IMG/VR virus record: IMGVR_UViG_3300028008_000116
Coordinates: 1 to 22,671 of that record
Length of the DNA stretch: 22,671 nucleotides
Direction: 5' to 3' (one strand)
From: a virus
This document shows positions 3,663-12,527 of this stretch, piece by piece (position 1 is the first letter of the stretch; the number at the start of each line of letters is the position of its first letter). The position numbers and the translations under genes are program-made. The notes under the pieces are model-generated. The model worked only from the letters and a program-made list of their open reading frames with translations, was not told where the DNA came from and did not search any database.

Positions 3663-3765
3663 TGGCTCTGGGGGTAGGAGTCGAACCTACAAGGTTAAAT
3701 ATATTGCAGTACATTCAACCACACGGTTAACAGCCGTGCGTGTTTACCAATTTCACCACCCCAGA
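3663..3765 (-). tRNA. tRNA with GTT (Asn) anticodon and long class II variable arm, CCA encoded
   Basis: Read on the minus strand. The acceptor stem TCTGGGG (3765-3759) pairs perfectly with CCCCAGA (3673-3667), followed by discriminator G and an encoded CCA (3665-3663). A D arm GTG..CAC carries the loop AAATTGGTAAA. The anticodon arm CACGG-CTGTTAA-CCGTG places GTT at 3731-3729, reading AAC/AAU. The T arm is GTAGG-TTCGACT-CCTAC. Between the anticodon and T arms lie about 31 bases that fold into an 8-bp stem, GGTTGAAT with ATTTAACC (one G-U), closed by a 12-base loop. Such a long variable arm belongs to Leu, Ser and bacterial Tyr tRNAs, not to tRNA-Asn, and the D-arm region (TGGTGAAATTGGTAAACAC) resembles tRNA-Leu. 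The 103-base gene begins six bases after the stop of a class II synthetase-like gene, so the two may be co-transcribed. Confidence 0.88.
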
Positions 3766-3771
3766 TTATTC

Positions 3772-4602
3772 TTATACCTTGTTGATTTTTTCTAGTGCAG
3801 GGATCATACGTGTAACACCTATGCCTCCGCCTACTCTTTGAAAGAAGTCAAACTCTAAAAACTTTTCTAGTTCTGCTTCAACTCTTTCCTTACCAAACAG
3901 TTTGAATAGTAACTCTGCATACTCTCCGCCTACAATACTATGGAATGTATCTCTCATCATATCAACATCACATGAACGTTCTGCTGATCCAATAGTTTCC
4001 ATACCACCTAGTATAACATCCATCTTCTTTGCAGTATTGCCATCATCATTTCTAGCCATGTTCCAAAATGGGCTTGTTAGTTCGGGGAAGTTTGTAATAA
4101 GTGTTTGACCAAACTGTTCTTCCATCTTTAGTTCGTGTTCTGCTTCCATTTCTACGTCAGTACCGAGTCCAAAGTGTTGTTGCCATTCAGCATAGGTCTT
4201 TTCTGTAATGTTGCCAAAGCCTAAGTATTCACATAGTTCATACTCCATTGCTTTTAGATCATCTACATTACCTGGCATTTCAAATTCAAACATTGGAAAT
4301 ATTATATCGTGTCTACCTGGAATTGCATTTGGTTCCTGTCTGTAGGAAGTTGAGACACAAAAAAAGCCCTTTGCTGAGGGCTGACTTAGTAATTCATGTT
4401 CTAACCACATCTGGCCTGTTTGTGGTAGTGGCCAAACATTGCCTGCATAGTTGTAAGTTGCTACATTGAATGGATCTTCGCATGCGGCTAGTATTGATAA
4501 TCTGTTTTGTGTGTGTACTTCAAGAAATCCTTTTTCCAAAAAAAATGACCTTAAAAGGCCAACTGTCTCTGTGAATTTACTTGGGTCTATTAGTTGCGTC
4601 AT
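3772..4602 (-). CDS. Class II (AsnRS/AspRS-like) aminoacyl-tRNA synthetase catalytic core, no anticodon-binding domain
   Basis: A 276-residue protein that is almost only a class IIb synthetase catalytic domain. The motif 1 region is LLRSFFLEKGFLEVHTQNRL (residues 16-35). QTGQMWLEHELL at 61-72 matches the TGQLYLE-type amino-acid pocket segment of Asn/Asp enzymes. Motif 2 is STSYRQEPN (Arg88, Glu90) followed by GRHDIIFPMFEFEM. ILGGMETIGSAERS near 197-210 resembles the GEIIGGSQRE segment of AsnRS, and motif 3 is GGGIGVTR (258-265, Arg265). The N-terminal OB-fold that binds the anticodon in real AsnRS/AspRS is missing, since the protein starts at motif 1 after about ten residues. Alternatives are an AsnA-type asparagine synthetase, another free-standing synthetase paralogue, or a true tRNA-charging enzyme. 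The unusual tRNA six bases downstream favours a tRNA partner. AAAGGA precedes the start. Confidence 0.82.
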   Translation of the reverse strand: MTQLIDPSKFTETVGLLRSFFLEKGFLEVHTQNRLSILAACEDPFNVATYNYAGNVWPLPQTGQMWLEHELLSQPSAKGFFCVSTSYRQEPNAIPGRHDIIFPMFEFEMPGNVDDLKAMEYELCEYLGFGNITEKTYAEWQQHFGLGTDVEMEAEHELKMEEQFGQTLITNFPELTSPFWNMARNDDGNTAKKMDVILGGMETIGSAERSCDVDMMRDTFHSIVGGEYAELLFKLFGKERVEAELEKFLEFDFFQRVGGGIGVTRMIPALEKINKV

Positions 4603-4770: not shown

Positions 4771-5238
4771 CTAAAACTTATTCAAAAATCTTGCTATGTG
4801 GTGCACCCATGGCAACAACATTATAGCCATAAACATGTTGGCACCTGTGTGTGCTATTGCTATCCTAAGTGTATCGCCTTTGGGCATACCATCGCTCACA
4901 AAAAAACCGGCTAACCAAATGGTGCCGGTGGTTCCGATGTTTGCGCCTAACACTGCCGCTATGGCTGCGGGCAGAGGCAGTGCCCCTGAGGCTACCAGTG
5001 CAATTATTGCCGTTGTACTTAAACTTGAACTTTGCCAAAGCAGTGTCATTACAATACCACCAAGGAACATATAGATTGGATTGCCCAAAAAGAAGTTCAA
5101 ATGTTCCAAGTTACCCATTGACTTCATGCCACCTGAGAACATCTTCAGCCCTATATAAAATACTACCAGTCCAACGAGAGCCGTCATTATGGGATTGCCT
5201 AAGTCCATCCTACATACCTTTTTAATAAGTTTGTTCAT
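4771..5238 (-). CDS. Half-length Na+/phosphate cotransporter (NptA/PF02690-like single repeat)
   Basis: A 155-residue integral membrane protein. The signature of the Na/Pi cotransporter repeat is clear: LWQSSSLSTTAIIALVASGALPL (QSSS at 69-72), then AAIAAVLGANIGTT (91-104). Hydrophobic segments lie at about 14-35, 55-70, 74-90, 92-112 and 125-148. Full-length NptA-type proteins carry two inverted copies of this unit, often with a PhoU-like tail. Here only one copy is present, so it would have to work as a dimer or with a host partner. The start is supported by AAGGA about 8 bases upstream. It probably sits in the inner membrane and imports phosphate with sodium during infection, which suits phosphate-poor ocean water. 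It is flanked by a nucleotidase gene and the synthetase-like gene. Confidence 0.85.
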   Translation of the reverse strand: MNKLIKKVCRMDLGNPIMTALVGLVVFYIGLKMFSGGMKSMGNLEHLNFFLGNPIYMFLGGIVMTLLWQSSSLSTTAIIALVASGALPLPAAIAAVLGANIGTTGTIWLAGFFVSDGMPKGDTLRIAIAHTGANMFMAIMLLPWVHHIARFLNKF

Positions 5239-6214: not shown

Positions 6215-6263
6215 TACGTTCACCCGAGAGGGCGGAAGTAGGCAATCGCTGAAGGAACGCACC
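6215..6263 (+). ncRNA. Glutamine riboswitch-like aptamer (Downstream-peptide / glnA RNA family)
   Basis: The block contains, in order, ACGTTCACCC, GGCGGAAGTAGG and GAAGGAACGCACC. These are the conserved elements I recall for the glnA and Downstream-peptide RNAs, which bind L-glutamine and occur in marine cyanobacteria and phages. CGTTC (6217-6221) pairs with GAACG (6255-6259), and CCC (6223-6225) pairs with GGG (6230-6232) over a GAGA loop. Downstream, CCTAA (6262-6266) can pair with TTAGG (6274-6278), next to the ribosome site AGGGAGGG (6277-6284), a possible expression platform acting on translation. As the name of one family implies, a short peptide frame follows at once. Confidence 0.85.
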
Positions 6264-10525: not shown

Positions 10526-10554
10526 AGTATACAGGTATTATTTAGGTAAGTCAA
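10526..10554 (-). promoter_or_regulatory. Early sigma70-type promoter for the clamp-loader gene
   Basis: On the minus strand TTGACT (10554-10549), 17 bases, then TATACT (10531-10526). The GGTTGACTTA sequence around -35 matches the promoters at 6167 and 9336. It overlaps the 3' end of the radical SAM gene and lies about 23 bases before the gp44 ATG. Confidence 0.75.
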
Positions 10555-12169
10555 CCAATTCTGGAAAACTATCTAATAGGTTTGCTTTATAGTATTTGTC
10601 TAGAGGCAAGATATTTTGCCAAAAGTCTTTACTATCAAAAGCAATAGTTGTATCTAGTTGTGTAAGGATGCTTTCAAAGCCCTGAGTTGCTCTACCTTCG
10701 TTATCAAGCGGACGTAACCATTCAAGATGATTATTAATTTTTTCTCTTATCTGCACACGTAAGGCGGGTGGAGCAGTTTCAACTCTCATCCATTCAGGCC
10801 AGTGTAGTGTCTGTATACGAAACTGTTCAGGTTTTATTAGACCTTTTTCTGTCCAACTGCGGTGAAAGTCTGGCACATGTAATACATTAATAAGACTTGT
10901 TGTACTACTGATATAAAAATCTATATCAGGACGTTGATCCAGCATTTCACGCCTAAAGTCTAATACATCTTGCCATACTGTTCCAGTACGTAGATATGCT
11001 CCTCTTTCGCCCTCTGCGTCAAGACTTGCACCAATGGATATGTTTTTAAAATTTTTCCATGCATCAAAGATACTGTGTCCTTTTAGATGCGAACGTGTCA
11101 TATTAGTATTATATATCAATTGGATGTCATGACGATGTCTTAGATTTAATTCAGCGAGTATCTTGTAGTTTTCTGGCATCATCAGTGGCTCGCCGCCGGC
11201 AAAGTATATCCTATCAATATTATCTAGTTGTTCAACTATTTGATCATACAAATCTGTGTTGTTTCTACCTGCTTTAAGGAATACTGGTGTAGACTTGTCA
11301 ATTAAACCAACTGCAACTGCTGGAGCATGCCAACTACTTGACGATCCGTGAACACAACTACGACAACTCAAATTACAAAGATTATTAAATCTTGAATCAA
11401 TGAATTTTAAATTATACTCGGGCGTGATATTTTGTTCGACAAGGTCTACGTGCTTTGCAAACGTAGTATTCATTGATGTTCTAAAACTTTCTTTTCCAAG
11501 TTTTTCAGCTCGCATACATTGTTTACATCCGTCACTTGGCAGATCATTTAGCATTCGTTTTCTTAAATTTTGATATGGTTTATCGTTCCAAATGTCTTTA
11601 AGGCTGTCTTTACTGCAATCACCAATTGACTCTCCATTCCATGCACAACACGGTGCAACACCATTTTTGGTATGAATGTATAAACTTGTCCAAGGAATTA
11701 TACAGAAATTTTTATTTTTAAATAGTAGATCTCTTTGTGCTTTTGTAAGTTTTGATATCTCTTCACTTCGATGATTGACACTATTTGTTTTTGTATATGG
11801 TCTGATATCACCTGCTGGTAATCTTTCAAAATTGCCTGCAATAGATTGTATTTTAAATGTTGTAGGGTCAGTACTATATGTTTTATGCACATAGCGATAT
11901 TCTTCATGAATTTTATTATTAGTTGTTACAAGACAGATAAAACAATTACTAATATCAATATGGTTAATAATAGTTTGTAAACTTTGTAATATTAAGCCAT
12001 GTGAATCTTTGTAAAAATCATTGGTTAATTTTATTACAATTTTTTGATTTGATTCAAAGGCTGGTTGATGTAGTGCTTTCAGTGCAAGATATAGATCAAC
12101 AAAGTTATCTTTGTAATGATCGCAATCAATTGTTCCTACAATCTCATCGCTGGTAAATGTCAATTGCAT
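10538..12169 (-). CDS. Radical SAM protein with upstream Cys-rich (SPASM/twitch-like) cluster
   Basis: A 543-residue protein in two parts. The first 140 residues show no known domain. Then FCIIPWTSLYIHTKNGVAPCC followed by SDGCKQC gives a second set of cysteines (156, 174, 175, 185, 215, 218), like the auxiliary cluster domain of SPASM/twitch enzymes, but placed before the catalytic core. The radical SAM motif CNLSCRSC is at 265-272 and GGEP, the SAM-binding strand, at 325-328. Such proteins cleave SAM to a radical and modify peptides or other small substrates. They recur in marine myoviruses, but the target is unknown. The frame extends to 12226, which adds a Met-rich hydrophobic leader fully inside the co-chaperonin gene. 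I prefer the ATG at 12169 (26-base overlap), though its ribosome site is weak. Confidence 0.85.
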   Translation of the reverse strand: MQLTFTSDEIVGTIDCDHYKDNFVDLYLALKALHQPAFESNQKIVIKLTNDFYKDSHGLILQSLQTIINHIDISNCFICLVTTNNKIHEEYRYVHKTYSTDPTTFKIQSIAGNFERLPAGDIRPYTKTNSVNHRSEEISKLTKAQRDLLFKNKNFCIIPWTSLYIHTKNGVAPCCAWNGESIGDCSKDSLKDIWNDKPYQNLRKRMLNDLPSDGCKQCMRAEKLGKESFRTSMNTTFAKHVDLVEQNITPEYNLKFIDSRFNNLCNLSCRSCVHGSSSSWHAPAVAVGLIDKSTPVFLKAGRNNTDLYDQIVEQLDNIDRIYFAGGEPLMMPENYKILAELNLRHRHDIQLIYNTNMTRSHLKGHSIFDAWKNFKNISIGASLDAEGERGAYLRTGTVWQDVLDFRREMLDQRPDIDFYISSTTSLINVLHVPDFHRSWTEKGLIKPEQFRIQTLHWPEWMRVETAPPALRVQIREKINNHLEWLRPLDNEGRATQGFESILTQLDTTIAFDSKDFWQNILPLDKYYKANLLDSFPELVDLPK

Positions 12170-12527
12170 CAGCCAATGTATCATCGTTGCCAGGATCATC
12201 ATCGCTAACAAGTAAAATGTCTGCATTGTCTACTTTACGAATCACAGTTTCTCCGTTTCCGTCTGCAATCTTCACACCTCTTGTCCAACGACCGTGTGCT
12301 ACCATGATCCATTGCCCTGTAGAAACTTCTGTTTGCTCTGGACCAATAGCATATACCTTGCCCCAACGTGGACGTATGCCATGACCTTTGCCGTCATCGT
12401 CTAATAATATGATTCCGCTTTGTAGTTTTCTTTCTTTAAATGCCATTTCTTCAACAATTACATCATCACGTAGTGCTCTAAACGTTTCTCTCGTAACTTT
12501 GTATGCATCATAGTTCTGTGTAGCCAT
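12144..12527 (-). CDS. GroES/gp31-like co-chaperonin
   Basis: A 127-residue protein with a GroES fold signature: LRDDVIVEEMAF (19-30) matches the first strands of GroES. KLQSGIILLDDDGKG holds a mobile loop whose Gly38-Ile-Ile-Leu41 parallels GIVL, the tripeptide that docks on GroEL. The following strands GKVYAIGP and STGQWIMVAHGRWTRGVKI, and a C-terminal NADILLVSDDD, also fit. T4 gp31 replaces host GroES so that the host GroEL can fold the large capsid protein, and this protein may do the same. AGGAG precedes the start, 12 bases upstream. It overlaps its neighbours at both ends. The tail past residue 110 is Asp-rich and lacks a GroES counterpart. Confidence 0.85.
   Translation of the reverse strand: MATQNYDAYKVTRETFRALRDDVIVEEMAFKERKLQSGIILLDDDGKGHGIRPRWGKVYAIGPEQTEVSTGQWIMVAHGRWTRGVKIADGNGETVIRKVDNADILLVSDDDPGNDDTLADAIDIYQR

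Follow-up and report, generated by a model that had tools for sequence, protein, structure and literature searches.

What use could a phage have for a small synthetase-like gene that is followed, six bases after its stop codon and on the same strand, by a tRNA gene whose body and anticodon seem to belong to different amino acids? The window, that is, the whole stretch of DNA that was analysed, is an entire virus record of 22,671 bases. It is a phage fragment that encodes an Rz-like spanin, a T4-type clamp loader, virion proteins and, on the plus strand, PhoH. The first-pass annotation had described a class IIb synthetase-like domain and a GTT tRNA at this spot and had proposed that the two form an orthogonal pair. 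The open reading frame, Pfam PF00152 and Rfam RF00005 confirm that a synthetase core and a tRNA are present. We find that their pairing is well supported and that the earlier interpretation, taken as a whole, is partly supported. The features on which the argument rests are collected in Table 1.

Table 1. Features of the enzyme gene and the tRNA gene (window positions)
Feature	Position	Strand	Basis
Core-only class IIb synthetase of 276 aa, similar to the catalytic part of AsnRS	3772..4602	-	ORF, PF00152, predicted structure, dN/dS
Codon of E68 (QTGQMWLE); column E in AsnRS, Q in AspRS, K in LysRS	4399..4401	-	alignment
Codon of R209 (ETIGSAER); column R in AsnRS and AspRS, E in LysRS	3976..3978	-	alignment
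tRNA gene with anticodon GUU on a class II (Leu-type) body	3666..3765	-	Rfam RF00005, covariance model, covariation
Anticodon GTT; loop CTGTTAA, U33 and A37 canonical in the window copy	3729..3731	-	fold, alignment; counted from stems
Long variable arm, 28-nt hairpin, 11 bp in the predicted fold	3693..3720	-	fold; compensatory changes in homologues
Leu-type D arm, 3-bp stem and 11-nt loop	3740..3756	-	same arrangement in the Leu tRNAs that model R1 picks up
Discriminator G73 and encoded CCA (CCA 3663-3665)	3663..3666	-	sequence

Rfam RF00005 finds the tRNA at 3666-3765 (-) with 56.2 bits, where the gathering score is 29 (E 7.2e-10), and the covariance model R1, of which the window sequence is itself a part, gives it 108.1 bits. 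ARAGORN called no tRNA in the window; in relatives it calls the paired tRNA a tRNA-Asn at four loci (L081, L082, L083 and L087) and misreads it as 'Glu' in L010, 'Gly' in L020 and 'Asp' in L089. The stems of the window copy are fully paired (acceptor 7 bp, D 3, anticodon 5, T 5), with a minimum free energy of -36.9 kcal/mol (z -2.9). Over 41 distinct homologous tRNAs, 99.3% of the cells are standard pairs and 18 of the 28 pairs have changed on both sides; this covariation signal is reached by none of 500 shuffles, and sliding the partners destroys the pairing. Since the helices are kept while the letters change, the tRNA structure is under selection. Covariation and the conserved linkage described below rule out a chance or decaying tRNA, in agreement with what had been read from the paired stems and the encoded CCA of the window copy. 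The variable arm is indeed long, and it is 96.9% paired over the 41 homologues; the 8 bp first ascribed to it are the part that aligns across relatives, and the predicted fold pairs 11 bp. In class II homologues (copies found by the scanner that requires T33) the variable region measures 13 to 38 nt. Sorted into lengths below 20 nt and lengths of 20 nt or more, it switches class 25 times on the FastTree tree, which holds 162 enzymes. With lengths that differ so widely and pairing that is kept, it follows that the stem is conserved and its length is not.

Some paired tRNAs have peculiarities of their own. At L016, L060 and other loci, where the enzyme shares about 83-90% identity with that of the window, the tRNA has a short arm, in which a variable stem of 3 bp is capped by a GAAA tetraloop. 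A small group of phages (L025, L034 and L040-L042) apparently has a bulged T in the T stem (GCATGG/CCTGC).

The enzyme matches the Pfam family tRNA-synt_2 (D, K and N) with E 9.4e-16 and PHROG 29758, a family of unknown function, with 1.5e-130. On the AsnRS family model TIGR00457 it scores 38.4 bits, about one ninth of the cut-off of 342.6. Its class II motifs are present, with R88 and E90 in motif 2 and R265 in motif 3, and these residues are invariant in all 30 family members that were aligned; so are E68 and R209. When the enzyme is aligned with 12 class IIb sequences taken from genomes (5 AsnRS or AsnRS-like, 5 AspRS and 2 LysRS, named by motifs and family hits), the last two take the places of the Glu (in GQxxxE) and the Arg of the AsnRS pocket. 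A Glu and an Arg of this type are reported, in work on the T. thermophilus AsnRS, to hold the asparagine side chain. Because the pocket resembles that of AsnRS, the misloading of another amino acid, which had been considered at first, is not favoured. In the class IIb alignment the acidic residue that precedes the motif 3 Arg is replaced by Thr. Comparisons with seven chosen relatives give dN/dS values of 0.07-0.15, and by this measure the enzyme is under purifying selection; for the most distant relatives the synonymous sites are almost saturated.

An AlphaFold2 model of the enzyme (mean pLDDT 91.6, pTM 0.89) contains no N-terminal OB-fold anticodon-binding domain, and it aligns with the T. 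thermophilus AsnRS structure 9sh8 solely from chain residue 130 onward. Foldseek returns the P. horikoshii AsnRS first and then a mixture of AspRS and AsnRS entries. With VIA-align, where we treat Z differences below 1 as ties, the top of the list consists of seven AsnRS entries with Z from 27.4 (Brugia) and 27.2 (human) down to 26.5. The best AspRS reaches 25.9, GenX 23.7, LysRS 23.4 and the archaeal asparagine synthetase A 23.0, and lower-scoring AsnRS entries go down to 22.9 (6pqh). Judged by the predicted structure, the enzyme is an AsnRS-like core without an anticodon-binding domain, with AsnRS as its best structural matches and AspRS close behind.

We then asked whether the two genes stay together in related genomes, since the proposed pair was to be given up if they did not. 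The gene was found at 348 loci among the matches listed, from viral contigs, genomes (one per species) and phage records, of which 260 are distinct at the DNA level. Most scans give the best 80 matches each, so the sample leans to close relatives. Eight of the 260 genes, with less than 120 bases of flank, were left out of the counts; one of these (L304) does have a paired tRNA. A script accepted as paired a tRNA with anticodon GTT, at most 300 nt away and with a variable region of at least 10 nt. Among the matches listed, it found one at 94 of the 102 genes that share 75% identity or more with the enzyme of the window, at 73 of 78 with 65-75% identity and at 6 of 9 with 60-65%, and at none of the 57 genes with 50-60% identity or the 6 below. 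Nearly all of these tRNAs (166 of 173) start at most 12 nt from the enzyme stop codon. The covariance model, run on all 91 loci that were negative in the scan requiring T33, whatever their identity class, and a looser pattern added eight GTT tRNAs at genes with at least 60% identity (the former in L025, L034, L040, L224, L227 and L248, the latter in L025, L034, L040, L041 and L042). In total, a GTT tRNA with a long arm lies downstream of 181 of the 189 distinct enzyme genes with at least 60% identity among the matches listed. No paired tRNA was found at the remaining eight (L031, L049, L090, L091, L184, L219, L229 and L267). When the script was run without an anticodon requirement, it detected a tRNA within 150 nt of 169 of the 189 genes among the matches listed, and all 169 have GTT.

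The linkage is present in the cyanophages P-SSM2, P-SSM5 and P-SSM7 and in uncultivated phages. On a tree of 99 representative enzymes, made with a quick method and with many weakly supported forks, the presence of the tRNA changes 6 times, compared with 33 in shuffles, and at least 3 changes are forced by well supported branches. So few changes suggest that the tRNA joined the enzyme once or a few times and has rarely been lost since. The two genes were thus inherited together, as the orthogonal pair that was first proposed would have to be. Around 50 representative loci that bear the tRNA, with flanks of uneven length, the most frequent other neighbour family is present at 10, so we see no third conserved partner there.

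Several loci deserve a separate remark. In L090 (5866-5885) the two halves of the acceptor stem and the CCA remain after the enzyme gene and the interior of the tRNA is missing; this is a deleted tRNA. In L221, L224, L227 and L236 there is no stop codon before the tRNA, and the enzyme frame runs into or through it. Three R1 matches upstream of the enzyme gene in L278 (38-45 bits) were rejected as partners, as they have bodies of 72-73 nt and other anticodons. The P-SSM2 record annotates a tRNA-Asn about 2 kb off, inside another gene (L082 4813-4900 and 6825-6910); ARAGORN and the covariance model place the tRNA directly after the enzyme gene. Just before the enzyme gene of P-SSM7 (L081 3871-3943) lies an annotated tRNA Leu of 73 nt with anticodon TAA and a short variable loop. 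Here the mismatch is turned around, and a Leu anticodon sits on a class I body.

Other elements near the pair in the window were also inspected. Between 3400 and 5400 we counted 6 promoter-like sites (shuffled mean 6.8) and three terminator-like sites (1.4 in shuffles), none of the latter downstream of the tRNA. A Glutamine riboswitch (RF01739, 53 bits) lies at 6215-6263 (+), and after it, at about 6292, comes a short ORF of about 37 codons behind an AGGGAGG-like ribosome site. A riboswitch-like motif is seen 120-128 nt past the enzyme stop codon in L020, L029, L188 and L196. In a pattern search, a Gln riboswitch adjoins the paired tRNA at just 4 of the 260 distinct loci among the matches listed, and it was therefore excluded from the two-gene unit. 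Near PhoH, at 4771-5238 (-), there is a short Na+/Pi cotransporter-like protein (PF02690, 155 aa), and at 10538-12226 (-) a protein of 562 aa with a SPASM match and a radical SAM match below its Pfam cut-off.

What, then, does the pair do? In our judgement it is probably a phage-borne two-gene module, made up of a minimal AsnRS and a tRNA(Asn) of its own, that serves for asparagine charging and the reading of AAC/AAU in translation. The 276-aa core would activate asparagine with ATP and load it onto the tRNA, which is probably co-transcribed with the enzyme gene. Because a core enzyme should not reach the anticodon, we expect the tRNA to be chosen by its acceptor end (U1-A72 and G73, both invariant) and perhaps by its elbow. 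The Leu-type body and the large variable arm should prevent the usual AsnRS or AspRS of the host from using it. The charged tRNA would then decode AAC and AAU on the ribosome, so that the supply of asparagine could persist in infection when the host tRNA(Asn) is cut, under-charged or lacking a direct route.

The anticodon loop is the part of the tRNA that fits this reading least easily. In elongator tRNAs, U33 and a purine at position 37 are near-universal. Among the matches listed, the 118 distinct paired tRNAs have U (98), A (16) or C (4) at position 37 and U (103), C (12), A (2) or G (1) at position 33. The purine-37 rule is broken in 102 of them and the U33 rule in 15, and the window copy keeps both. 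Positions 34-36 are GUU in all 118; the scan required GTT, and the scan without this requirement agrees. As a control, other tRNAs of the same loci were collected with the same script and stricter stem rules. Of the 58 obtained, one proved to be the paired tRNA of L304, and the other 57 all keep U33 and a purine at 37. The FastTree enzyme tree has 15 changes at position 33 and 19 at position 37, of which well supported branches force about 7 and 9. C33 is as scattered there as in shuffles, 146 of 500 of which are as low, and both a repeated origin and a separate exchange of tRNAs and enzymes fit. A pyrimidine at 37 or the loss of U33 should impair normal decoding, and the loop oddities suggest either that the tRNA evades defences that cut tRNAs or that it acts outside normal elongation. 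For mycobacteriophage tRNAs, changes in the loop that are known to affect VapC cleavage have been proposed to confer resistance to anticodon nucleases, according to the available text of PMC10264068.

A role outside elongation would mean that the enzyme charges the tRNA with asparagine and that the product donates the amino acid away from the ribosome, perhaps in the modification of a protein, a lipid or a peptide, with the loop freed from decoding rules. The broken loop rules, found in none of the 57 other tRNAs of the same loci, and the repeated changes at positions 33 and 37 are what one would expect from it. On the other hand, the 169 detected tRNAs all have GTT, a constancy that is hard to explain except by decoding unless something else reads the anticodon, and the 50 representative loci have no conserved transferase-like neighbour. 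We consider such a donor unlikely, and because the anticodon is frozen we favour loops that dodge nucleases. An enzyme without an anticodon domain could hardly hold the anticodon constant, which makes codon reading the simplest selector; we infer that it is codon reading that keeps GUU in place. A bolder proposal, which we put forward tentatively and would not expect to hold, covers both branches: a virus-specific asparagine channel, in which the tRNA has repeatedly been freed from the U33 and purine-37 rules and the anticodon alone is frozen. It would be either a nuclease-proof decoder of AAY unlike ordinary elongators, charged by a core-only synthetase, or a carrier of asparagine outside the ribosome.

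The wider enzyme family raises another doubt. Of the 63 genes below 60% identity among the matches listed, one (L260) is followed after about 160 nt by a weak tRNA-like match with GTT and a poor anticodon stem; another, L115, has an ordinary class I tRNA-Asn 204 nt on from the enzyme gene. Relatives without the tRNA occur in Bacteroidota, Patescibacteria, Chlamydiota and other genomes, many of them metagenome bins. The Bacteroidota loci without an adjoining tRNA include L092, L093, L094, L096-L100 and L104, and the relative in L094 sits among chromosomal genes, near PEPCK and GldB. Two distant members belong to very large phages, L084 (LR756501, 735 kb) with 48% identity and L085 (LR756508, 484 kb) with 46%, and have no adjoining tRNA. 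We looked for a partner tRNA elsewhere in the genomes of tRNA-less members by running R1 over 37 genomes or records; among the matches listed it returned the paired tRNAs and many others, and the ten best matches in 17 stretches taken from them are the GTT copy of L260 and nine tRNAs with Leu anticodons. An AsnRS above the TIGR00457 cut-off is found in 11 of 17 genomes that hold relatives, which are holders and not identified phage hosts, and in neither of the two large phage records searched.

The absence of a linked tRNA from most distant members would suit an asparagine synthetase of the archaeal AS-A type, which makes free asparagine and leaves the adjoining tRNA to a host enzyme. Its fold is near that of our model (Z 23.0), and the family model NF005055 weakly matches 22 of 30 family members. 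We nevertheless regard this as quite unlikely, as the window enzyme scores 19.1 bits on NF005055 against a cut-off of 389, the best AsnRS structures outrank asparagine synthetase A, and the tRNA linkage is near-obligatory in the phage clade. A search of 40 genomes for asparagine synthetase A found none over the cut-off.

Could a host enzyme charge the tRNA? By appearance the tRNA is a chimera, with a Leu-type body and an Asn-type acceptor end and anticodon. It has the GUU and G73 of a tRNA-Asn and lacks the class I body with a short variable loop; it has the D arm and long variable arm of a tRNA-Leu and lacks a Leu anticodon and A73. The Leu-like body next to an Asn anticodon, which had been pointed out before, is borne out by the nine Leu-anticodon matches of R1, three from two cell genomes and six from phage records. 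U1 and G73 are present in all 118 distinct homologous tRNAs among the matches listed, and L115's ordinary tRNA-Asn has both as well. Of the 118, 71 encode CCA, which the P-SSM2-like group lacks. In the available text of PMC9976931, GUU and G73 form the bacterial asparagine identity set, so the host AsnRS might charge the phage tRNA; for the pair itself, orthogonality is plausible. The same text gives A73 as the Leu determinant in E. coli and states that G73 can turn a Leu tRNA towards Ser identity, so that attraction of SerRS is possible. A host SerRS or LeuRS might thus load the tRNA by its class II body, with its Leu-type D arm and long variable arm, and cause a deliberate or accidental mistranslation of Asn codons. 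We find this very improbable: G73 speaks against LeuRS, a private enzyme would be needless, and misreading of AAY codons, which make up 391 of 6230 codons (6.3%) in 20 chosen ORFs of the window, should be costly.

A last possibility is an enzyme like EpmA/GenX, which aminoacylates a protein, next to a hitch-hiking tRNA. EpmA/GenX likewise consists of a class IIb core, lacks an anticodon domain and has a similar fold (Z 23.7). This reading is hardly credible to us, given 14.2 bits on TIGR00462 against a cut-off of 286.9, pocket columns that agree with AsnRS and not with LysRS (in the alignment of AsnRS, AspRS and LysRS sequences), and a tRNA that stays linked while other neighbours change.

We return to the private AsnRS and its tRNA(Asn). 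What counts against this reading is the TIGR00457 score far below the cut-off, the closeness of AspRS structures, a wider family almost without the tRNA and the odd loops. Overall, many marine phages carry the two-gene unit, and this suggests that they have a private asparagine supply for protein synthesis. If this is true, ocean phages hold in one small cassette a natural synthetase-tRNA pair that is both private and widespread and that serves a standard amino acid. It opens the questions of how a synthetase without an anticodon domain achieves specificity, how the ribosome handles a tRNA without U33 and purine 37, and whether phages remodel individual tRNA species so as to survive defences that cut tRNAs. 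The compact class II tRNA and its 276-aa enzyme could also seed engineered orthogonal pairs.

How does the pair compare with known systems? With bacterial and eukaryotic AsnRS the phage enzyme shares the class IIb catalytic fold, motifs 2 and 3, the Glu and Arg of the Asn pocket and the best structural match; it differs from them in the missing anticodon-binding domain, the low family score and the Thr before the motif 3 Arg. EpmA/GenX and the archaeal asparagine synthetase A are synthetase cores without an anticodon domain that have taken other jobs. The window enzyme lies far below both family cut-offs, and we know of no linked tRNA for either of them.

In the part of the open-licence literature that was available to the search, we found no paper on the enzyme-tRNA pair. 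The protein family as such has been seen before: PHROG 29758 and the 'tRNA ligase' T4-GC194 of the cyanophages P-SSM2 and P-SSM7, a table row in PMC3037559, are the same family as the window enzyme (66-68% identity). In the available text of that paper T4-GC194 is a table entry only, and the pair, the tRNA shape and the loop are not discussed; the P-SSM7 and P-SSM5 records annotate a tRNA-Asn directly after the enzyme gene. With the phage tRNAs that PMC10264068 proposes to evade anticodon nucleases the paired tRNAs share loops that depart from those of the host and an anticodon that stays, and the accessible text of that work mentions no synthetase. The idea of a phage enzyme that charges a phage tRNA is shared with huge phages, whose synthetases have been suggested to charge phage tRNA variants (PMC7162821, in the text available). 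Those synthetases are described there as host-related, whereas the system of the window is a near-obligatory two-gene unit of a core-only enzyme and a tRNA with an odd body.
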